Below, piece after piece: positions 33,274 through 62,999 of a stretch of 64,000 nt of DNA. The stretch comes from Candidatus Acidiferrales bacterium. GTDB taxonomy: Bacteria > Bacteroidota > Ignavibacteria > Kryptoniales > JAKASW01. How positions within the stretch are numbered: position 1 is the first letter of the stretch; each line of letters opens with the position of its first letter. The notes beneath the pieces were generated by a model. The model had not been told where the DNA came from, did no database searches, and worked only from the letters and a program-made list of their open reading frames with translations. The position numbers were made by a program, and so were the translations under genes. The stretch lies in contig DATJAY010000020.1 in assembly GCA_035515795.1 (NCBI GenBank), forward strand, positions 62,001 to 126,000. The letters run 5' to 3'.

Positions 33274-34440
33274 ATGAAAAAAGAAATTGCAATCCTTGGC
33301 TCCACCGGCTCCATCGGCAGAAGCAGTTTGGATGTCATCTCCAGCTTGAACGAGCAGGGCGAAGACTACCGTGTGGCTTATCTGGTCGCGAATAAGAATA
33401 TCGACTTGCTATATCAGCAGGTGAAGACATACAAGCCTGTCGGAGTTGTGGTAATAGATGAACAACAAGCAATCCGTTTTTGCTCCTATCTGAACGGAGA
33501 GAAGCTGAAAGTTTTATCCGGTGAAAAAGGCTTGATGGATATAATGGCCGGCGGCGAGTTTGATATTCTGGTCAGCTCACTGGTAGGCTTCGTGGGGCTC
33601 CGTCCTACTTTGGAGGCACTGCGCGCGGGGAAAAAGGTTGCACTTGCAAACAAGGAGACCATGGTCGTTGCCGGTGAAATTGTAAATGAGACCGTGAAAC
33701 GATGTAACACGACGCTTTTGCCTATCGACAGTGAACATAGCGCAATTATGCAGTGCTTATCCGGAGAAAGAAGGGAATCTGTGGCGAGGCTTATTCTCAC
33801 CGCATCCGGCGGTCCTTTTTTAAATCGTGACAAATGCGAACTTGAAAACGTCACGGTCGAGGAGGCGTTGAATCACCCTAAATGGAAAATGGGGAACAAA
33901 ATCACGATCGATTCTGCGACTCTGATGAATAAGGGTCTTGAAGTCATAGAAGCGCATTATCTTTTCGGGCTCCCTGCGGAAAAAATTGAAATAGTGATAC
34001 ATCCACAGTCCGTCATTCATTCCATGGTAGAGTTTGTCGACGGCTCGATAAAAGCTCAGCTCGGGATGCCGGACATGAAGATCCCGATCCAATACGCGTT
34101 GTCATATCCTGAACGGGTGAAGTCAAATTATGAAAGGGTCGACTTCGCTAAAATTTCGCAGCTCACATTCATGAAACCGGACGAGGAAAAATTTTCTCTG
34201 ATAAAACTGGCATACGAAGCACTCAGGGCGGGCGGAACCGCAACGGCAATTTTGAACGCTGCAAACGAGGCGGCCGTAGACTTATTCCTTCAACGGAAGA
34301 TAAAGTTTACTAAAATTGCCGCACTCGTCGAAGAAGGACTTCAATCCATTCCAATAAAGAGTTCTCCGGCCATCGAGGAAATATTCGAAGCCGATCGAGC
34401 AGCAAGGCTGTTCGTTTATTCCGATACGGAACATACATAA
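33274..34440 (+). CDS. dxr: 1-deoxy-D-xylulose 5-phosphate reductoisomerase
   Basis: 388 aa. Second step of the non-mevalonate isoprenoid pathway. The NADPH loop is ILGSTGSIGRSS. The metal- and substrate-binding region reads LPIDSEHSAIMQCL, with TASGGPF and the HPKWKMGNKITIDSATLMNKGLE stretch after it. It supplies the isoprenoid precursors used by MiaA and the UbiA-type enzyme in this window. rseP follows after 70 bp. Confidence 0.96.
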   Translation: MKKEIAILGSTGSIGRSSLDVISSLNEQGEDYRVAYLVANKNIDLLYQQVKTYKPVGVVVIDEQQAIRFCSYLNGEKLKVLSGEKGLMDIMAGGEFDILVSSLVGFVGLRPTLEALRAGKKVALANKETMVVAGEIVNETVKRCNTTLLPIDSEHSAIMQCLSGERRESVARLILTASGGPFLNRDKCELENVTVEEALNHPKWKMGNKITIDSATLMNKGLEVIEAHYLFGLPAEKIEIVIHPQSVIHSMVEFVDGSIKAQLGMPDMKIPIQYALSYPERVKSNYERVDFAKISQLTFMKPDEEKFSLIKLAYEALRAGGTATAILNAANEAAVDLFLQRKIKFTKIAALVEEGLQSIPIKSSPAIEEIFEADRAARLFVYSDTEHT

Positions 34441-34510: not shown

Positions 34511-35812
34511 ATGACATACATAATCTATTTCATAATAACTGTTGGCGTACTCGTCCTGGTGCATGAGTTCGGTCATTTCATCGCTGCAAAAAGTTTTGGA
34601 ATGAAAGTCGATACCTTCTCGATCGGTTTTCCCCCACGCGCCTTCGGCAGGAAAATCGGAGAGACGGACTATTGCATATCATGGATACCCATCGGGGGAT
34701 ACGTAAAAATCGCTGGAATGGTCGATGAGAGTTTTGATACCGAATTCCTCGACAAACCTCCCCAGCCGAACGAGTTTCGCTCCAAGCCGATATACCAGCG
34801 CATCATCGTCGTCTCTGCCGGTGTGATAATGAATTTCTTATTGACGTTTCTGATTTTCTACGGGATAAGTCTCGTCAACGGGAGATCATACATTGCCTCA
34901 ACCACGATAGGTATTGTCGATACAAGCTCCGTCGCGGCGAAACTTGGCTTTCAACCGGGCGACAAACTAATCGCGATCAACAACAAAGCGATGAACAGCT
35001 GGCAGGATATTCAGGCGGATCTGTACATTGATAATGTCGGCTCTCCGCTGGCGGTTACCCTCAACCGCGGTGGACAGGTCAGAACAATAATTGTTCCCAA
35101 GGGCTCGGCTAAGGCGGATGATCAAATCGGGATTTATCCGGATCACATGAATGCGGAAATTGATGTTGTCGATCCCAATATGCCGGCTTACAAAGCGGGA
35201 CTTCGACCCGGGGACATCATATTGTCGATAGATGGAAACGAGATCGCGGCTAATACACAGGTCAGTAATTATATAAAAAAAGATAAAGGAAAATTTGCTC
35301 ACCTCGTAATAAGACGGGGAAATGAAGATAAGCAGTTTCAGGTCATGCCCAATTCCGATAGTCTGATCGGCATCCAGGTTGGTGGACACTATACAGGGCC
35401 CGTTACAAAGTATAGCTACAATATGGTGTCAGCAGTTCCTGTCGGATTCATGCAGACGGTAGACGCGACGGGACTTCTGGTCAAATCTATTTGGCTGATG
35501 ATAACGGGAAAGGTTTCATTCACGAAGTCGATCGGCGGCCCTATCAAGATTGCACAGCTCGCGACTCAGAGCGCCGAGATGGGCATAGGAGCTTTTCTCG
35601 GTTTCATGGCGCTATTAAGCATAAGCCTTGCAGTGTTGAATATACTTCCAGTCCCTGCGTTGGATGGTGGACATCTTGCCTTTCTTGTCTACGAATCGAT
35701 TTTCAAAAAAGAAGTCCCCGCAAAAATAAAATTGTTTGCGCAGCAAGTTGGCTTTGCGCTTCTATTGCTATTTATGGCCTTTGTAATCTATAATGATATA
35801 GTACACTTCTGA
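34511..35812 (+). CDS. rseP: Site-2 intramembrane metalloprotease (RseP/M50)
   Basis: 433 aa. The zinc motif HEFGHFIAAK is in the first membrane helix and the third ligand segment NILPVPALDGGHL is in a C-terminal helix. Two PDZ domains lie between, near residues 130-200 and 205-285 (VAAKLGFQPGDKL and PAYKAGLRPGDII). It cleaves membrane-bound regulators such as anti-sigma factors. The dxr-rseP neighbourhood is common in bacteria. Confidence 0.94.
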   Translation: MTYIIYFIITVGVLVLVHEFGHFIAAKSFGMKVDTFSIGFPPRAFGRKIGETDYCISWIPIGGYVKIAGMVDESFDTEFLDKPPQPNEFRSKPIYQRIIVVSAGVIMNFLLTFLIFYGISLVNGRSYIASTTIGIVDTSSVAAKLGFQPGDKLIAINNKAMNSWQDIQADLYIDNVGSPLAVTLNRGGQVRTIIVPKGSAKADDQIGIYPDHMNAEIDVVDPNMPAYKAGLRPGDIILSIDGNEIAANTQVSNYIKKDKGKFAHLVIRRGNEDKQFQVMPNSDSLIGIQVGGHYTGPVTKYSYNMVSAVPVGFMQTVDATGLLVKSIWLMITGKVSFTKSIGGPIKIAQLATQSAEMGIGAFLGFMALLSISLAVLNILPVPALDGGHLAFLVYESIFKKEVPAKIKLFAQQVGFALLLLFMAFVIYNDIVHF

Positions 35813-36006: not shown

Positions 36007-37074
36007 ATGCGTTGTCTTAAACTTGGGTTGTTCATCTTCGTATTGTTTGTCGCCGCCGTTGAGTCACATGCACAGTACTCCGTTAATCTCGACGTCAACG
36101 TTCCACAATACAATCAAATCTACATTGCAGATTTAGACATCCAGAACAAGATTGCACAGAGTTCCGGTGTTCTGTTTACCGCGACACTTCGATCGAAAGC
36201 CTCGACCCCAATTCAGGTGAAACTTAATTTGTCCGTAAATGTAACTCTGGTGGGGCAGACCCCTTTCCAGGTCGCTCAGGGTACAACCACACCGCTTACA
36301 TTGAATCCGGGACAACTAAAAGTCATAACCAATGTTGATTTATCAGGCCCCACCCCACCGATACAATTTGACAGCTATTCTTTCGATCAAAGTCAGTTCG
36401 ACCGCATCAGAGACGTTGCATTGGCAACGGGTAAGGCTCCCGCTGGCGTCTATGAGTTTAAGTTGACTTGTTTTGATGTAAGCGGCAACCAGGTTTCAAA
36501 CGACGCGGCAGGAGATATTATCGTTACCAATCCAAGTCGGATCGATCTCGTCATTCCTATTGAGGGAGAAAACGTCACAACTCTCTTCCCGCATTTTCAA
36601 TGGTCCGCAAACTCCGACACCGTGATATTATCTATCTACGAAAAGTTGCCAAGCCAGCAGAGCCCGCAGGATGTAGTCTCCGGAGTACCTTTCCTGCAGC
36701 AAACAGTGGCAGGCAGCTCGTTCAACTATCCACCTTCCGGTGCAGCAGTAAGGCCATTGGAAAACGGCAAGACTTATTATTGGTTCGTTGATATCCCGCC
36801 ATCTTCGACAAGAGGAAACGGGACACGGAGCGATATCTGGGATTTCACCGTCGGTGGAATTGATACGACTGGTGGAGCCGGCGTGGATAATGTAGCGGCA
36901 ACAAAGGCGCTCCAGAATCTTTTGAACGGGACTCAATATCAAAGCTTGCTAAATCAGATCACGACGTTGAACGGCAATTCTTCGTACGATGGAAGTTCGC
37001 TCAACATACAGGATTTGATCGACATCCTTCAAAACATGGATAAATCTAAAATTACCAATGTTACCATTCAGTGA
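36007..37074 (+). CDS. Secreted Ig-like/fibronectin-type protein, first gene of FecR-cyclase module
   Basis: 355 aa from the ATG at 36007, chosen because AGAGAGG precedes it and a signal peptide (LFIFVLFVAAVESHAQ) starts at once; an in-frame ATG at 35974 adds 11 residues. The mature protein is beta-rich. About residues 180-285 resemble a fibronectin-like repeat (LVIPIEGENVTTLFPHFQWS ... GKTYYWFVDI). No enzyme motif is seen. It is only 10 bp upstream of the FecR gene, so they are co-transcribed. The 194-bp gap before it contains GGCGCCAGC twice (35846 and 35925). Confidence 0.72.
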   Translation: MRCLKLGLFIFVLFVAAVESHAQYSVNLDVNVPQYNQIYIADLDIQNKIAQSSGVLFTATLRSKASTPIQVKLNLSVNVTLVGQTPFQVAQGTTTPLTLNPGQLKVITNVDLSGPTPPIQFDSYSFDQSQFDRIRDVALATGKAPAGVYEFKLTCFDVSGNQVSNDAAGDIIVTNPSRIDLVIPIEGENVTTLFPHFQWSANSDTVILSIYEKLPSQQSPQDVVSGVPFLQQTVAGSSFNYPPSGAAVRPLENGKTYYWFVDIPPSSTRGNGTRSDIWDFTVGGIDTTGGAGVDNVAATKALQNLLNGTQYQSLLNQITTLNGNSSYDGSSLNIQDLIDILQNMDKSKITNVTIQ

Positions 37075-37084
37075 GGAGACGCAA

Positions 37085-37777
37085 ATGAAAAAACATAATT
37101 CGATTTTTGCGATTGCATTATTTGCATTCGTTGCATCGATCGCTTTCATGGTGGCGACTCCTTCGAACAGCAACATCGCCTTGTTCTGGGTTGTAAAAAA
37201 CACCGTTGAGAAAAAAGATTCTACCGATCAATGGGTCCAGGCAAAGAAAGGCGATTTTATTTACCCGGGCAATTTCGTTAGAACTGAAAAGGAATCATTC
37301 ACCCTGGTGAAATTCAATGATGCGAGTACTCTTCGTCTGGGTTCGAACGCCGAGGTGCAAATCTACGGCGACAAGAATCCGCAGAGTGCCAACGTCAGCA
37401 GCGGCGATGTCGGCTTCACGATGACGAAGAGGACAAATGGTCAATTTGAATTCACCACCCCAACGAGCGTCGCATCTATCCGGGGTACGGAAGGAGTGGT
37501 GACTGTGCAAATGGATGGGACGGATTTTCTCACGATAGTCGAAGGACTCGTGCAATTCACAAACAAGTTTTCAAACAAGACTATCGATGTAAGTGCTGGT
37601 CAAACCGGAGAGTCGTCAAAAGACGGAGGGATAGACGTTCATCAATCTACTCAAGAAGATCTGAACAGACTGTCACAGCTGGATAACCAATTCAACCAGC
37701 AGCAGCATAAACTTGAGGTATGGTTCCTGGGAAGCGACGGAAAGCTGCACGAGGTTATTATCGAGACCCAGCAATAG
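37085..37777 (+). CDS. FecR-domain periplasmic protein
   Basis: 230 aa from the ATG at 37085, which has GAGGAG upstream. N-terminal signal peptide or anchor (SIFAIALFAFVASIAFMV). A FecR domain follows: KKGDFIYPGNFVRTEKESFT, LVKFNDASTLRLGSNAEV, then the typical beta-helix strands FEFTTPTSVASIRGTEGVV and IVEGLVQFTN. Unlike anti-sigma FecR regulators it has no cytoplasmic N-terminal domain, so it is a free FecR of the kind found beside CHASE2 cyclases. The C-terminal tail is Gln-rich. Confidence 0.85.
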   Translation: MKKHNSIFAIALFAFVASIAFMVATPSNSNIALFWVVKNTVEKKDSTDQWVQAKKGDFIYPGNFVRTEKESFTLVKFNDASTLRLGSNAEVQIYGDKNPQSANVSSGDVGFTMTKRTNGQFEFTTPTSVASIRGTEGVVTVQMDGTDFLTIVEGLVQFTNKFSNKTIDVSAGQTGESSKDGGIDVHQSTQEDLNRLSQLDNQFNQQQHKLEVWFLGSDGKLHEVIIETQQ

Positions 37778-37923
37778 TCGTGTCCTGCTTTTGGCGAAGG
37801 CGCTCGATTCAATTAAACAATCCGATGTCCCGTATGAAATTATTAATGCTTCGGGATGGGGCGCTTGTTGGAGCGGGAGAGATTGTCTTTAAATCATAGA
37901 AGAATTTTTACCGAGGAGGCATC

Positions 37924-40320
37924 TTGAAAATTTTCATTTACCGCGGCGGGGATTCTTTGTGTCGCGTCTTGGTCACATCTTTTACAGTTGTCTTATTTCT
38001 ATTTCCAGGTTCGTCTTATGCTCAACAGGGTCAGATCATCAATATCGTAGCCGCTTCTCAGCCGGCCGAGAATGAAGCCTTGAAGGTTAAGGCAAACGTC
38101 AAGAGCCTTTCCGGCATATCACAATCGATATTGTTTTACCGTAACGATTTGTCATCAGATTTTCAACAAACGGAAATGAGCCTCGATGAAACAACGATGA
38201 CGTTGAACGGCGTTGTTCCCGCCGACTATGTGGTGAGTCCTTATGTCGAAGTCTACATAAGGATAACCATGCAGGATGGTACAAGTGAGACTTATCCGTC
38301 CGAGAATCCTACTGAGACTCCTGTCCGCTTCACCGTCAGCCAGCCCGAATCTCAACAGAATATTCTTGTCATAAGTCCCGAAAGGAATCAGAAGCTGGAC
38401 ATAAATGACCTGATGATTGCGGCTTCGATGCTTTATGCTCCTGATTATGTGGATCGAACCAAAACTCAGTTGTACCTTGACGGCATAGACGTAACGGCGG
38501 ATGCGGTCGTGAGCGGCGATATCATTGTTTACTCGCTGTCGAAGTTCCCTGTGGAAATAGCCGGCGGTATTCATACGGCGCGAGTAGTGCTTCACAAGAC
38601 CGACGGAACTGAGTACGACAGTCTCGAATGGAGTTTCTTCATAACGTCACCGGCAGGACGGACGGCTGAAGAAATAATTTCTTACAGAGGACGGGGTCAA
38701 ATCGAGCTGAGAGACGAGAATATCTCGGGAAGCTCAACATGGTACAACCGCGGAGATCTAAATTTCGGAGGCAATGGCTACGGCGTCGGTGTAGGAGTGA
38801 ATCTCCACCTTACTTCGGAAGAAAAATCATATCGTCAGCCTCAGGATAAATATGCATTATATGCAAACACTTCATGGTTAAGCTTAAAGTTAGGTGACAG
38901 CTATCCGGCATTCAGTCCGTTGATAATGAACGGGATGCGCGTACGTGGAGTTTCCGGGGAACTTTCTGTCGGTTTCTTCAACCTTGAAGCGGCTTACGGG
39001 CAAACAATAAGGAGAGTTGATGGACAATATCTGGACACCGTGTCGACTCCGCCGGTCACCAGCTATATCAAATTGGATAGTTTGACTTACGTTAATGTCA
39101 ACTACGGCACCTACAGCAGGAATCTTTTTGCGATCCGGCCCTCGTTCGATTTCGGGAGCCATGCGCAGCTCGGATTGACGTATCTGAAATCTTCAGACGC
39201 AGCGGGTTCGATCGGCCTCGGAAAAGATCCCAGCCAGAATCTCGTGCTCGGCTCCGATTTTTCCATGAATTTCGACGACCACAGGATAAATCTTCTCGCG
39301 GAAGGTGCAATGAGCATGGTCAATCAGAATATCGCCGCGGGAAATCGAACCGCGGCCGACATCGACTCGATTTCTCAATCTAATGCAGGCGACCAGATCA
39401 ACAATTTTATTCCGCTGTCGACTCTCTCGAGCTTCATCACGATAAATGAATTTCTCGTTCCACTCGATCCATCAAAGCTTTCTTCTCTTGCCTGGGATGC
39501 CAATCTAAGCTTGAACTATTTCAACACATTTGCAAAGATAGGATATGTCTATCGCGGTCCCGATTACACCTCGTTCGGTCAAATGTATATCCGGACGGAT
39601 ATCCGAGGCTTGAATGTCGCATTGAGGCCGCGCCTTTATTCGAACCGGATCATACTTTCGATTTACTATGAGAACCTTTTCGACAATCTGCAGAAACAAA
39701 AATTTGCCACAACGCATTTTATTAACACTAACGTTGCCGCTTCGTACTTCCCGACCATCGACATGCCAAGCATTACACTCGGGGTCTCTTCTTATTCAAA
39801 CTCGAATCCGGTTCCGCTAGATTCCAGTTATGCCGTAGACAATGCGACGATAAGGTACTACGTGCAGTCCAGCTATGGTTTTAATTACGTTATCAAACAT
39901 TATCTGACGGTTGATTTCGGAATAAGCAATACAAACGACCACACTTTCTCAGGCACTAATCTGAGTGATTTCAACTTTGCATTTCTGCTCAACTCGGATT
40001 TCGGGGACATGCCGCTGAAGACCACGATAGGGTTCAACATAAACGGGAACAAGACTTCACCGAAGGACACGGCAGTAATCGGCGGGGCATTCAATTATAC
40101 CTTCATAACATTCGGCGGCACGTACGGCTTGTTGGAGAACCAGCTTGTCGTCGGCGCGAGCTATACTCCGACTTTCGGCTCATTTTCGAGAAACATGTTT
40201 GCAGTGACTGCGAGTTACAAGGTGGCAAAATCTCAGTCGTTGAACCTGAATCTAAATTATCTTGCCGTAACAGGCTCGAACGACTTTGTCGGGTCGCTTA
40301 TCTATGCCGTGGATTTTTGA
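37924..40320 (+). CDS. Outer-membrane beta-barrel protein of the FecR-cyclase module
   Basis: 798 aa from a TTG at 37924 with a strong GAGGAGG upstream. A signal peptide ends near SSYAQQ. Residues about 35-240 form beta-sandwich-like periplasmic domains. From about 260 to the end, alternating hydrophobic strands of 9-12 residues with aromatic girdles suggest a beta-barrel of many strands, closing with the terminal Phe typical of Bam substrates (IYAVDF). No porin or TonB motif recognised. It is the third gene of the module. Confidence 0.72.
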   Translation: MKIFIYRGGDSLCRVLVTSFTVVLFLFPGSSYAQQGQIINIVAASQPAENEALKVKANVKSLSGISQSILFYRNDLSSDFQQTEMSLDETTMTLNGVVPADYVVSPYVEVYIRITMQDGTSETYPSENPTETPVRFTVSQPESQQNILVISPERNQKLDINDLMIAASMLYAPDYVDRTKTQLYLDGIDVTADAVVSGDIIVYSLSKFPVEIAGGIHTARVVLHKTDGTEYDSLEWSFFITSPAGRTAEEIISYRGRGQIELRDENISGSSTWYNRGDLNFGGNGYGVGVGVNLHLTSEEKSYRQPQDKYALYANTSWLSLKLGDSYPAFSPLIMNGMRVRGVSGELSVGFFNLEAAYGQTIRRVDGQYLDTVSTPPVTSYIKLDSLTYVNVNYGTYSRNLFAIRPSFDFGSHAQLGLTYLKSSDAAGSIGLGKDPSQNLVLGSDFSMNFDDHRINLLAEGAMSMVNQNIAAGNRTAADIDSISQSNAGDQINNFIPLSTLSSFITINEFLVPLDPSKLSSLAWDANLSLNYFNTFAKIGYVYRGPDYTSFGQMYIRTDIRGLNVALRPRLYSNRIILSIYYENLFDNLQKQKFATTHFINTNVAASYFPTIDMPSITLGVSSYSNSNPVPLDSSYAVDNATIRYYVQSSYGFNYVIKHYLTVDFGISNTNDHTFSGTNLSDFNFAFLLNSDFGDMPLKTTIGFNINGNKTSPKDTAVIGGAFNYTFITFGGTYGLLENQLVVGASYTPTFGSFSRNMFAVTASYKVAKSQSLNLNLNYLAVTGSNDFVGSLIYAVDF

Positions 40321-40474
40321 CTCTATCGGGATGGACCTTTGGACCCGATTCGAAATTGTTCCTGACCGCAGAGATTGAAAAGTCACGTCAACTTTGTTTG
40401 CTTGAACCACAATTTTTCTTCGCGGCACTTTCCAGTGGTTGCAGTTAAGATTCTTTTTGATTATGGTTTAAATA

Positions 40475-42667
40475 ATGATTAAGGCTCTCGGCGGATTTTC
40501 TAAGACGCGAAAATTGATCTTGCCTCTGGTCATTGCCGCGGCCTCATCAGCCCTCGCCTTCCTCCTTTCAAGAGGCATCCCCATGGAGATTTCATTTCTT
40601 GAGACTGCACAAATGAAGACACTCGATCAGCGTTTCGAGCACCGCGGGGCAATGGACATCAAAGACTCTTCGAAGGTGGTGATTGTCGGGATAACCGATC
40701 AATCATCAGAGGCGCTTCCCGCAGGCTTCCCGTTCCCGCACTGGTACTATGCGCGAATGATCAAGAACCTTTTTGATGCGGGAGCAAAAGCCGTAGGGAT
40801 CGATATCCTGTTTGAAGACTCATCCCGGATACCGGGGGATGATAAGATTTTTTCCGATGCGCTGCGAAAATACAAAGGTGTGGTATTGGCTGTGAGAAGC
40901 GAGATCGAGAGCAGCGAGAAATACAAGATCCTGAAGAGCGAGGATTTTTATCACAATATTTTCGCGGGAGCAGACAGCTCATTAGGGATGGTGTTCGTAG
41001 AGAACGATCTTGACGGAGTTTATCGCAGGTATCGTCCGATCGTTGAGATCCAGGCAGGTCAGGGGAAATACAAATTTATTCCGTCGTTTGCGTTTGCAGT
41101 CCTGTCGCAATATTTAGGATTGGGAAATCAGCTGGCTGTCAATCATGAGAGATATTTCGAAATCGGAAATCTTGAGATTCCCAAATACGACGAGACGTCG
41201 ATGCTCATAAATTACCCCGGGCCGTCGGGAAGGATCTTCCCAAGATATGATATGTGGCAAGTTCTGGATGATTCTTCGTTCACTACGAAAGACGAAAAGG
41301 AAGCTGGTATTGAAATAAACGCATACTATGATTTGAAAGACGCCGGGCTGTTTAAAGATAAGATCGTTTTGGTAGGCGCATTCTCTCCCGAATCTCATGA
41401 CCTGATGCCGATCTCGTTCACTCTGGGGGAGAATAATCTCGCTTACGGAGTCGAAGTTCACGCGGCGGCCATAGAAACTGTTCTCGATGGGGATTTTCTG
41501 AGACGCTCGGATGCAATCATGGATCTCGCCGAGATGTTCATAGGCGCATTCCTGATTGCATTGACCTCATTTGTATTTAAGTCCGCGCAGCGTTCGAGAA
41601 TGTTGCTGGTAATCTTCATACCGTTGCTCGCTACGATCGCAGTTATCTTCATATCGTTTCAGGCAGCATTTTTGTTCTTTGACAGACAAAGAATTGTTTT
41701 GGATGTCATTTATCCGGTCCTTGGTTATGTTTTCGGTTATGTCGGTACGGTTGTTTACCAATATGTTTCGGAACGTCGGCAGAAGGCCGCTATCAAATCA
41801 ATCTTCAGCAGATACGTCGATCCATCTGTCGTGAATCAGTTAGTCGATAATCCCGAGCTTGTTAGATTGGGCGGAGAGAAAAAAACGATGAGCGTCCTTT
41901 TTTCCGACATAGCCGATTTCACAGGTGTCAGTGAAAAACTTTCTCCCGAAGAGCTGGTCGCCCACCTGAATGAGTACCTGACAGAAATGACCGGGACGAT
42001 TTTCCAATACAGCGGCACACTGGACAAATACATCGGTGATGCCATCATAGCATTTTGGGGAGCGCCGATCGAGCTTAAGGATCATGCCTTTCGTGCCTGC
42101 CAGACTGCGATGGAGATGACGAGAAAATTGGGCGAGCTTCATTCAAGGTGGACCAAGGAGGGGAAACCTTTGCTGGATTTCAGGATTGGAATTAATTCCG
42201 GCGAGATGGTTGTTGGAAACGTGGGAGGGAAAGAGCGTTTCGATTATACGGTGATCGGGGACAATGTTAATTTGGCTTCCCGCCTCGAGGGTGCGAACAA
42301 ATTCTACAGGACGAAGATTCTTCTAAGCGAGTTTACCCACGAGCTGGTCAAAGAAAAGGTCTTTGCGCGTGAATTGGATTTGATAGTCGTGAAAGGGAAG
42401 ACGCGTCCCGTAAAAATATATGAGCTATTGTCGGATAAAATTGAAAGCGTAAGCAAAGAAGAGAAAGAGCTTGTGGATCTCTATTGCTTCGGGATTTCAA
42501 AGTACAGGAACCGGGAGTGGGGAGCCGCGGCAGACTTCTTCGAGAAGGTGATTTCATTGGATCCATCCGATTATCCTTCCGAAATGTACCTCGAACGAAG
42601 CAAGGTTTATGAAATTGATCCGCCTCCCGATGATTGGAACGGCGTGTTTGTCATGGAGACGAAATAA
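40475..42667 (+). CDS. CHASE2-domain class III adenylate cyclase
   Basis: 730 aa. One N-terminal helix, a periplasmic CHASE2 sensor (about 40-340: VVIVGITDQSSEALP, DAGAKAVGIDILFED), three helices (about 345-425), and a cyclase domain (about 455-640). The metal Asp residues are in LFSDIADFTG, the adenine-selecting Lys in DKYIGDAIIAFWG, and the transition-state Asn/Arg in GDNVNLASRLEG, so cAMP is the likely product. A short TPR-like tail ends it (YRNREWGAAADFFEKVISLDP). It is 154 bp after the barrel gene and on the same strand. Confidence 0.92.
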   Translation: MIKALGGFSKTRKLILPLVIAAASSALAFLLSRGIPMEISFLETAQMKTLDQRFEHRGAMDIKDSSKVVIVGITDQSSEALPAGFPFPHWYYARMIKNLFDAGAKAVGIDILFEDSSRIPGDDKIFSDALRKYKGVVLAVRSEIESSEKYKILKSEDFYHNIFAGADSSLGMVFVENDLDGVYRRYRPIVEIQAGQGKYKFIPSFAFAVLSQYLGLGNQLAVNHERYFEIGNLEIPKYDETSMLINYPGPSGRIFPRYDMWQVLDDSSFTTKDEKEAGIEINAYYDLKDAGLFKDKIVLVGAFSPESHDLMPISFTLGENNLAYGVEVHAAAIETVLDGDFLRRSDAIMDLAEMFIGAFLIALTSFVFKSAQRSRMLLVIFIPLLATIAVIFISFQAAFLFFDRQRIVLDVIYPVLGYVFGYVGTVVYQYVSERRQKAAIKSIFSRYVDPSVVNQLVDNPELVRLGGEKKTMSVLFSDIADFTGVSEKLSPEELVAHLNEYLTEMTGTIFQYSGTLDKYIGDAIIAFWGAPIELKDHAFRACQTAMEMTRKLGELHSRWTKEGKPLLDFRIGINSGEMVVGNVGGKERFDYTVIGDNVNLASRLEGANKFYRTKILLSEFTHELVKEKVFARELDLIVVKGKTRPVKIYELLSDKIESVSKEEKELVDLYCFGISKYRNREWGAAADFFEKVISLDPSDYPSEMYLERSKVYEIDPPPDDWNGVFVMETK

Positions 42668-42733: not shown

Positions 42734-43825
42734 ATGAAAACCGATCGGAAAGAGCAAAGAGCGAAGAGCAAAGTTAAATCGGGAGCGGCGTCCGAAAGGC
42801 CTGCAGCGCCGAGTCAAGCGGGAGACGATGTAAAATTCGATAGAGCACTTAGACCTAAGCTACTGAACGACTTTGTCGGTCAGAAGAAGATTGTAGAGAA
42901 GCTGCGCGTTTTCATCGAGGCTGCAAGAAAAAGGAAAGAATCTCTTGATCACGTCTTGTTGATGGGGCCGCCGGGATTGGGGAAGACCACCTTGGCGAAT
43001 ATCATCGCAAACGAACTTCAATCGGAGATCGTTTCCACGACAGGTCCGTCTTTAGAAAAACCGGGAGACCTCGCGGGAATATTGACCTCGCTGGAGACAG
43101 GTGTTGTCTTATTTATCGACGAAGTCCACAGGATGCCGCCGGCTGTGGAAGAAATTCTGTACGGCGCCATGGAAGATTACCGGCTCTCGATTGTCGTTGA
43201 TCGCGGGCCCGGTGCACGCAACGTCCAGCTTGATTTGAAGCCGTTCACCCTTGTTGCGGCCACGACGCGCGCTGGACTTCTAAGCAACCCTTTCAGGTCA
43301 AGGTTCGGCATTATTGAACGACTCGAATATTATGAAGACGGAGAGCTTAAGAAAATTGTCAATCGTTCGGCGGCCATTTTGAAAGTTCCGATTGAAGAAG
43401 ATGCCGCTTTTGAAATCGCGAGGCGCAGCCGTGGCACGCCTAGAATAGCGAATCGCCTTTTGCGGCGGACGAGGGATTTTGCGGATGTAAAGGGGAAAAA
43501 CAGAATCGATGTCGAAACCGCACGGGATGCGCTCGACCGCCTGGAAGTTGACAAGACCGGGCTCGACGAAATGGACAAAAAGATTTTGTCGACGGTAATA
43601 GATTTCTACAAGGGTGGGCCGGTCGGTGTAAGTGCCATAGCAGCGGTGGTGAGCGAAGACAGCGGAACACTCGAAGAAGTTTATGAACCTTTCCTGCTGC
43701 AAAAAGGCTATTTGAGACGGACTTTGAGAGGGAGGGAAGCTACGGAAAGAGCTTATGAGCTTTTGAACAAGAAGAAAACGGCCCCTTCTTCACAAACGGA
43801 GATAGATGGGTTGACCAAGCAGTGA
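42734..43825 (+). CDS. ruvB: Holliday junction branch-migration helicase RuvB
   Basis: 363 aa. AAA+ motor of Holliday junction branch migration. A Lys/Ala-rich leader of about 30 residues precedes the core [19 protein letters not shown]. Walker A is GPPGLGKTT, Walker B LFIDEVHR, sensor 1 [18 protein letters not shown], and the C-terminal winged helix has [15 protein letters not shown]. ruvA and ruvC are not adjacent. The glycosylase gene follows after 25 bp. Confidence 0.96.
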
Positions 43826-60944: not shown

Positions 60945-62999
60945 TTGCCTCCCTTTTACGCGAACTTTTCGTTTGCTTTAGGTACGCACGCATTCCATTC
61001 CGGAGATTCGACGGGAATGAACCTGGCGGGAATGTATAACGAGGACTACAACAGCGATTGCACCACGACATGGTCGCCGACAGACCCGCTTACATTGACC
61101 ATCGTTTCAGGGAGTCAATACGTATCGTTTCATCAAAGAGATTCACCGACGGGGGTAGATGCAAAGATTGGTTCGGTCGTTACGACAACGGGGAACGATA
61201 TTGGTCATTATTCTCTTGTTGCGGACGGAATCACTCCTGATTCAAGTGGTGATTGGGCAACGGTACAGGCGGTTAGTGATGGAATAACCGGAACAGATTC
61301 AGTGCAAGTTTGCCAGCTGCCGGATCACTTCTCCGTTTATACTGACCCGGATACAGTCGCACATTCAGGAAGGGCATACATATATGTTCAAGCAGAAAAC
61401 AGCGCAGGTAATGATATTGTGATTCCCTGGAGTACCCCTCTTTACATCACTGCAGATGATAGTGGAAAGTACGGCGAAGCCTATGATTGGAATAATAATA
61501 GCTCACCCTATCCATACGGCGATGCTTCCGGAGAGATGCTGTACAACGCCGATGGTGTGGAACCGAATGGCGTGCAGAAGATTACGATATCTGTTTTAGA
61601 TGCTAATGATCCGACGAAGAGCGGCACTGGGAGCTTATTTATCGAAGGAGACATTGTTGTACAGGTTGTTCCTTCGGAGATATCGCCCGGCGACACAGCG
61701 GCAATTACTGTCAAGCAGAGAAATCCGGATGGAAGCCTGACCGACTTTTCACCGAATCAATCATTCGAAGTCGGGATAGACAGCGGAAACGCTTATGGAA
61801 CGATTCTGTCATCGGGCGGCGCAGGTGGATATTTCGCATCCGTGTCTCAACCGTTTCAATTCATAGCGGCAGACAGCATAGGTGCAGACTCGGTAAAGGC
61901 AGAAATAAGGGTAGGTATACCGAATGAGATAGCGACTTCTATACTGCCTGGTCGAAAAGGAAATTCAGATCAGAACATGAAAGCGAAGCACCCGACAATT
62001 AGCATAAATGTCGCAAGTCCTAAGATCCCTGCAAGCAGAGTGAATTCTGTTACAAAAAGTCACAAGATTATTTCTGATGAGAGTAGTTTTACTATGCCCG
62101 ATTATGGAATTGGATATGTGACTATAAAGGAAGGCGGACCAGAATTAGTGGTTATATATCCTACCGACGAACTCAAAGACGAGAAAGACATAACTAAAGA
62201 TCCAAAGATGCCTGACATCACGACAGAAGCCAAACTTGCAAATTTCAAAGGCGACTCTGTACATTTCCAATGGAACCTTCGGGTGCAGTGGGAAGGTGAT
62301 GATGGCAGACAGTTTGACGATTCTTTCAAAGGAAATACAACTGCAGCAGACTCGAATGGTAGTTCATGGAACATAAACTGGGACAAGATACGAGGTGGTG
62401 ATGAACTGACACTCGATGTAACGGCGACGGCTAGCGGAAAGGTTTATGATAAAACAATAAATCATCCTTTTATAATTACGGGTCTGAATCCGACAAAAGA
62501 ACAAGTAAAGAATGGATTAAGCACTGAAGAACAAGTGATAGTGTATATGGAAAGCAGGCCGAAGTGGCATCATTTTATAAAAGACCATGATTTTCCGATC
62601 TTCGGAAGGCCTCACGGGTACGGACTGATGCAACTTGACACACCGCCTGCCACTGATGAACAAGTTTGGAACTGGAAGGAAAATAGAGCAGAAGGGCAGA
62701 GACGTTTTGCTGAGAAAAAAGGATTGGCAGCAGCGCATCCATCAAAGGTAAGAAGGAGGAGTGGCGCGTGTCGTTATGCGACAGACTTTACACAGCAAGA
62801 GTATTTAACGGAAGCCTTTCAATTATACAATGGATATTATTACTGGATTTGGCATCCCCGATTTGCCTGGGCTCCTATGTTAGGTGGTTATTGGGAAAAG
62901 GATCCAAATTTAGGAGTAAGATATGGAAGAGATTATGGCGGACCTGCGATAGAAATATATAATGATGTAGTAAACGGCAATCCGCCAAGCGGTTGGTAA
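60945..62999 (+). CDS. Large secreted Ig-like protein with C-terminal lysozyme-like domain; N-terminus apparently frameshifted
   Basis: 684 aa from a TTG at 60945 with no SD and no signal peptide. The frame is continuous back to the TGA of the preceding gene (60918-60920). A signal-peptide-like start (MNRLRLILIFASLL) is encoded one frame away from TTG 60917; deleting one T in the run near 60953-60957 would join it to this ORF. Beta-sandwich repeats occupy the first 450 residues. The end has ESRPKWHHF, then HGYGLMQLDTP, WNW and EAFQLYNGYYYW, resembling goose-type lysozyme or transglycosylase folds with E of ESRP as possible catalytic acid. Confidence 0.62.
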   Translation: MPPFYANFSFALGTHAFHSGDSTGMNLAGMYNEDYNSDCTTTWSPTDPLTLTIVSGSQYVSFHQRDSPTGVDAKIGSVVTTTGNDIGHYSLVADGITPDSSGDWATVQAVSDGITGTDSVQVCQLPDHFSVYTDPDTVAHSGRAYIYVQAENSAGNDIVIPWSTPLYITADDSGKYGEAYDWNNNSSPYPYGDASGEMLYNADGVEPNGVQKITISVLDANDPTKSGTGSLFIEGDIVVQVVPSEISPGDTAAITVKQRNPDGSLTDFSPNQSFEVGIDSGNAYGTILSSGGAGGYFASVSQPFQFIAADSIGADSVKAEIRVGIPNEIATSILPGRKGNSDQNMKAKHPTISINVASPKIPASRVNSVTKSHKIISDESSFTMPDYGIGYVTIKEGGPELVVIYPTDELKDEKDITKDPKMPDITTEAKLANFKGDSVHFQWNLRVQWEGDDGRQFDDSFKGNTTAADSNGSSWNINWDKIRGGDELTLDVTATASGKVYDKTINHPFIITGLNPTKEQVKNGLSTEEQVIVYMESRPKWHHFIKDHDFPIFGRPHGYGLMQLDTPPATDEQVWNWKENRAEGQRRFAEKKGLAAAHPSKVRRRSGACRYATDFTQQEYLTEAFQLYNGYYYWIWHPRFAWAPMLGGYWEKDPNLGVRYGRDYGGPAIEIYNDVVNGNPPSGW

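Follow-up and report, generated by a model that had tools for sequence, protein, structure and literature searches.

Does a row of four adjacent genes in a Candidatus Acidiferrales bacterium (GTDB phylum Bacteroidota, class Ignavibacteria) encode four unrelated envelope proteins, or a single pathway that carries a signal across the cell envelope? The genes lie in a 64,000-nucleotide (nt) stretch of DNA, here called the window (positions 62,001 to 126,000 of contig DATJAY010000020.1), which is part of a 4.08-Mb genome (G000, contig C20). An initial annotation, made from the letters of the window alone, had described four co-directional genes, and all four open reading frames (ORFs) were present on the + strand:

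36007-37074, + strand: Ig-like gene, 355 amino acids (aa); signal peptide, two Ig/FnIII-like beta-sandwich domains and a helical C-terminal tail
37085-37777, + strand: FecR gene, 230 aa; exported, with a FecR domain near the centre and an N-terminal signal peptide or membrane anchor
37924-40320, + strand: barrel gene, 798 aa; outer-membrane beta-barrel with two periplasmic Ig-like domains ahead of it
40475-42667, + strand: CHASE2 class III adenylate cyclase gene, 730 aa

We think that these genes, referred to below as the quartet, on balance probably encode one trans-envelope sensory pathway leading from the outer membrane to cyclic AMP (cAMP).

Conservation of the quartet

The quartet was conserved far above chance. 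Among 12 relatives from the same genus, 10 had all four genes in identical order, and the other two (G002 and G006) lacked all four, with dxr-rseP followed by ruvB after 148 and 152 nt, respectively, at a clean junction. This joint absence accords with the proposal of the initial annotation that the genes form a module. When named genome contigs were scanned by pattern, 57 barrel loci emerged, among them some from Ignavibacteria/Ignavibacteriales, Melioribacter, Stygiobacter electus (a cultured species with the quartet at L136) and Candidatus Kryptonium, and at 44 of the 57 the Ig-like, FecR, barrel and cyclase genes were complete and in order; of the remaining 13, 12 were truncated by contig ends and one (L152) was without an adjacent cyclase. 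Three barrel ORFs were split (L092, L150 and L153), for which we considered and rejected programmed frameshifting, as the break sites differed and one was an N gap. On plasmids, the barrel gave a single weak match.

The association extended across the phylum. In a sample of 396 spread genomes, 93 had a strong barrel match (weak partial matches in 7 genomes were excluded) and all 93 encoded a CHASE2 protein, as did 44 of the other 303 genomes (Fisher p ~6e-57, with relatedness not corrected for). The CHASE2 gene stood directly downstream of the barrel gene, on the same strand, in 82 of the 93 (81 by coordinates and G061 by locus). The full quartet also occurred outside the class of the window, at 11 loci in families f26, f37, f52 and f57, so that the barrel and Ig-like genes were kept beside FecR and CHASE2 across many families. 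The initial annotation had named a lack of such conservation in relatives as grounds for refutation, and on this count it was not refuted. (The locus sets of these separate surveys share some genomes, and their counts are not additive.)

The quartet also persisted through change of flanking genes. The pair dxr-rseP stood upstream of it in f1, f2, f4, f6, f13, f17 and f20, and other neighbours were found in f12 and in f10, f19, f24, f26, f37, f52 and f57. This pattern bears on the possibility that the four are merely co-expressed envelope genes, inherited vertically beside dxr-rseP, with each acting independently. Mostly vertical inheritance of the locus is indicated by gene trees that agree with those of dxr and rseP, but the quartet was kept with other flanks in the last seven families named, and both the joint absence in two congeners and the domain that FecR and the barrel share in some genomes speak against independence, which we regard as improbable.

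Features of the exported proteins

The FecR protein matched Pfam FecR (PF04773) at 39.9 bits (cut-off 24); the Ig-like protein and the barrel matched no Pfam or NCBIfam family. AlphaFold models agreed with the labels that these two proteins had been given initially. The model of the Ig-like protein (pLDDT 85) consisted of two beta-sandwich domains and a helical tail, and in Foldseek it retrieved generic Ig/FnIII-type matches only, at low TM-scores. The barrel model (pLDDT 81.5) had two N-terminal Ig-like domains (~38-241) and ~26 long strands (252-797), and its closest solved structures were the Mtr-complex barrel 6r2q_B and the FimD usher, both weak matches with TM-scores of 0.34-0.50. A common origin of the Ig-like protein and the barrel N terminus was not convincingly supported, as profile comparison gave only a 40-residue match at 60% probability, and the same comparison of the Ig-like protein with FecR gave no match. 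The FecR protein (37085-37777) also matched the NCBIfam Leptospira surface models Lsa33, Lsa19 and LipL45, far under their cut-offs. Paralogues of the barrel (660-779 aa) were seen at L256:3010-10884 and L257:3919-13696, beside proteins of 1.8-1.9 thousand aa (kaa) whose N-terminal part resembles the Ig-like protein and a 673-676 aa protein, with neither FecR nor CHASE2 present.

Two features connect FecR with the barrel. In G049 and G058 the FecR protein of the module contained a homologue of the N-terminal Ig-like domain of the barrel (29-42 bits), in three copies and one copy, respectively, and the FecR proteins of G163 and G240 likewise had copies, bringing the total to four genomes with 1-3 copies each. 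This domain sharing and the fusion of FecR to a barrel in NsrA of Sinorhizobium meliloti are independent hints that FecR and the barrel may touch.

FecR domains can have another function, and we considered whether the FecR protein might be an anti-sigma regulator cleaved by the adjoining site-2 protease RseP, with the cyclase a bystander. The position of rseP directly upstream in several families would suit such a role, as would the FecR domain of E. coli, which acts with the outer-membrane protein FecA (PMC5498481). However, no sigma-factor gene lay near the FecR gene, whose neighbourhood contains dxr, rseP and ruvB, and the protein had no cytoplasmic anti-sigma domain, its N terminus being an export signal or anchor. 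Moreover, roughly half of the families had no rseP beside the quartet, and rseP remained in place where the quartet was absent, leaving this explanation very unlikely. Searches of the 798-aa barrel against Pfam and NCBIfam matched none of the plug or STN domains of TonB-dependent receptors.

The cyclase and its presumed output

The cyclase matched Pfam CHASE2 at 157 bits (cut-off 26.3) and Guanylate_cyc at 87 bits (cut-off 21.9). It begins with a transmembrane segment, the only N-terminal one by hydropathy, followed by a periplasmic CHASE2 domain, further transmembrane segments between residues 347 and 403, a catalytic domain (469-649) and a short TPR-like tail ending PPPDDWNGVFVMETK. Residues D478, K518, D522, T592, N599 and R603 were invariant across 26 cyclase homologues and aligned with CyaB (3r5g) and adenylate cyclase 1wc1. 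We take these to be the two metal Asp residues, the adenine-binding Lys, the Thr/Asp partner, and the transition-state Asn and Arg, and the Thr at the adenine-partner position presumably marks class IIIb. The cyclase retains the class III catalytic set, as active adenylate cyclases do.

Seven proteins that bind cyclic nucleotides were encoded in the genome, all outside the window, and two of these were Crp-like with helix-turn-helix domains, so a candidate cAMP receptor is available. The earlier statement that the window contains no cAMP receptor thus stands for the window, where no cyclic-nucleotide-binding protein was found, and is refined by the two Crp-like candidates elsewhere in the genome.

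Quartet and non-quartet CHASE2 cyclases (40475-42667; L063, L098, L100 and L204) had a common C terminus, ~PPPxDWxGVFxMxTK, after the TPR-like segment. Downstream of a second CHASE2 cyclase in G000, on contig C12 (L063:8345-12427), came a gene for an SH3_3+M48 peptidase, then small lipoprotein-like genes and, farther on, a caspase-like protein; the pairing of cyclase and SH3_3+M48 peptidase recurred in L100, in a CHASE2 context unlike that of the quartet.

A proposed pathway from the outer membrane to cAMP

In the pathway that we propose, the barrel would sit in the outer membrane, with its two Ig-like domains in the periplasm, and would sense a ligand or an envelope condition. FecR and the Ig-like protein, as exported partners of the barrel, would read its state in the periplasm, and FecR would pass that state on to CHASE2, the periplasmic domain of the cyclase in the inner membrane. 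Signalling would thereby run inward, with the cyclase setting the cytosolic level of cAMP, which Crp-like regulators encoded elsewhere in the genome may then read. The initial annotation had drawn a path from barrel to periplasmic FecR and Ig-like proteins to CHASE2 and cAMP, and this path matches the experimentally studied NsrA-CyaK system.

Several findings weigh against this proposal. The barrel gene did not adjoin a CHASE2 gene in f29 and f44, nor in single genomes of f56 and f20; in f29, f44 and f56 the barrel stood alone, with CHASE2 elsewhere in the genome, and in f12 an Ig-FecR-barrel trio was found apart from the cyclase. Tight linkage is therefore not obligatory. In G060 (68% complete) the order was dxr-rseP-cyclase with the trio missing, and in G295 (f20) there was no cyclase within the stretch read. 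Mirror-tree distance correlations among the four families were high (r 0.90-0.97), though correlations with dxr and rseP were just as high; because the four gene trees track these unrelated genes, the correlation is no evidence for contact. In addition, comparison of the barrel profile with the NsrA barrel revealed no homology at the sensitivity used.

The main rival is a transport or assembly device. According to this explanation, the barrel and the Ig-like protein are chiefly an outer-membrane transport or surface-assembly unit, usher- or conduit-like, and FecR and the CHASE2 cyclase only check that it works, so that the signal would be the status of the envelope or cargo, not an external ligand. 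The similarity of the barrel model to the Mtr-complex barrel and the FimD usher, weak as it is, fits such a unit, as do the separation of the barrel from CHASE2 in f29/f44/f56 and the existence of barrel paralogues (580-780 aa) that adjoin proteins of 1.8-2.2 kaa with an N-terminal part like the Ig-like protein, in places without FecR or CHASE2. No conserved cargo or chaperone gene was seen in the quartet loci, however, and the near-universal linkage to CHASE2 suggests that selection has acted mainly on signalling; we consider a transport unit unlikely, yet the strongest competitor of the sensory pathway.

In f29/f44 the place of FecR and Ig ahead of the barrel gene was taken by genes for a conserved protein of the HIT family and a TPR protein of 108-121 aa:

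L199:6539-10032: HIT-TPR-barrel locus
L200:7009-10480: HIT-TPR-barrel locus
L201:5681-9252: HIT-TPR-barrel locus
L202:5540-9136: HIT-TPR-barrel locus

Returning to the sensory pathway, we tentatively suggest a more specific form of it, in which the quartet is a phylum-wide and previously undescribed four-protein receptor. CHASE2 would read the state of the barrel via FecR, not a small molecule itself; the Ig-like periplasmic domains would mediate recognition between barrel and FecR; and the Ig-like protein would be a dedicated third partner. No description of the quartet in this phylum was found in the open literature that we searched, subscription literature lying outside the search.

Layout of the locus

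The order on the + strand was dxr, rseP, Ig-like, FecR, barrel, CHASE2 cyclase and ruvB, with the following flanks and spacers:

33274-34440, + strand: dxr, upstream flank
34511-35812, + strand: rseP (M50 site-2 protease), upstream flank
37778-37923, + strand: FecR-barrel spacer, 146 nt; its 3' end is GAGGAGG, Shine-Dalgarno-like
40321-40474, + strand: barrel-cyclase spacer, 154 nt
42734-43825, + strand: ruvB, downstream flank

Upstream neighbours of the quartet in some families only, dxr and rseP probably lie outside the module. The barrel-cyclase spacing, 154 nt in the window, was ~25 nt in most congeners and, in other families, mostly -4 to +15 nt. Shine-Dalgarno-like sequences preceded the Ig-like, FecR and barrel genes and not the cyclase gene, in keeping with the initial remark that most of the genes have one. 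The Ig-like gene starts at ATG 36007, in an ORF already open from GTG 35974; FecR has an in-frame ATG at 37058 that overlaps the Ig-like stop; and the start codon of the barrel gene is TTG. A promoter and terminator scan gave counts at or below shuffled expectation, and we claim no internal promoter or terminator.

Comparison with known systems

That FecR and CHASE2 genes are known neighbours, as noted initially, has been reported in Campylobacterota and Burkholderiales (PMC9239204, PMC5192318). In Campylobacterota, a CHASE2 adenylate cyclase clusters with a FecR-domain outer-membrane protein, and the two were proposed to act in a single pathway (PMC9239204); unlike the quartet, this cluster additionally encodes a TPR protein and a phosphodiesterase, with no Ig-like protein or separate barrel described (PMC9239204). 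Within our own set, G134 (L253:1399-9130) had a 1583-aa protein, a FecR-like protein and a CHASE2 cyclase in a row, an arrangement resembling the Campylobacterota FecR/TPR/CHASE2 clusters. In Burkholderia contaminans, an exported FecR-domain protein is encoded beside a CHASE2 receptor (PMC5192318), but this operon has a histidine kinase and response regulator as its output, joins FecR to LysM in one protein, and has no barrel (PMC5192318). The FecA-FecR-FecI system has the same logic of a barrel and a periplasmic FecR relay, whereas the quartet is without a TonB-dependent plug/STN, an anti-sigma domain and a sigma factor.

Of the systems described so far, the one most like the quartet is NsrA-CyaK of S. 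meliloti (encoded on pSymB as nsrA-cyaK, with CyaD1/D2 and Clr), in which the coding sequence for a FecR domain and an outer-membrane barrel likewise lies immediately before the gene of a CHASE2 class III cyclase. Perception of signal 1 requires both NsrA and CyaK (PMC7529298), and the pair is the sole experimental precedent that we found for a relay from a barrel to a CHASE2 cyclase (PMC7529298, PMC13001267). The genetic requirement for the barrel was reported for S. meliloti (PMC7529298). NsrA (1200 aa) combines in one polypeptide a Pfam FecR domain (66-160; 57 bits), TPRs and a predicted barrel from ~residue 600, and its gene overlaps cyaK by 1 nt; in the quartet, FecR and barrel are separate genes. 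The NsrA barrel does not match the quartet barrel family, no Ig-like gene adjoins nsrA, and CyaK is shorter, its match stopping before the C-terminal tail of the quartet cyclase. By analogy, the quartet would work on the NsrA-CyaK plan, but it is not a strict member, given its separate polypeptides, other barrel family and extra Ig-like protein. The arrangement is therefore less novel than the initial annotation implied, the FecR-CHASE2-barrel plan being already known.

What CHASE2 domains detect has been described as unknown (PMC5192318). The quartet narrows this question, for an orphan CHASE2 sensor, to three candidate upstream partners, and it gives a probable role to Ig-like and barrel families that have no Pfam or NCBIfam model. 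The occurrence of units of barrel, FecR and CHASE2 both in this phylum and in distant Pseudomonadota suggests a general rule, by which CHASE2 receptors would monitor the proteins of the outer membrane through FecR. To that plan the quartet adds FecR and barrel on separate polypeptides, a different barrel family and an Ig-like protein.

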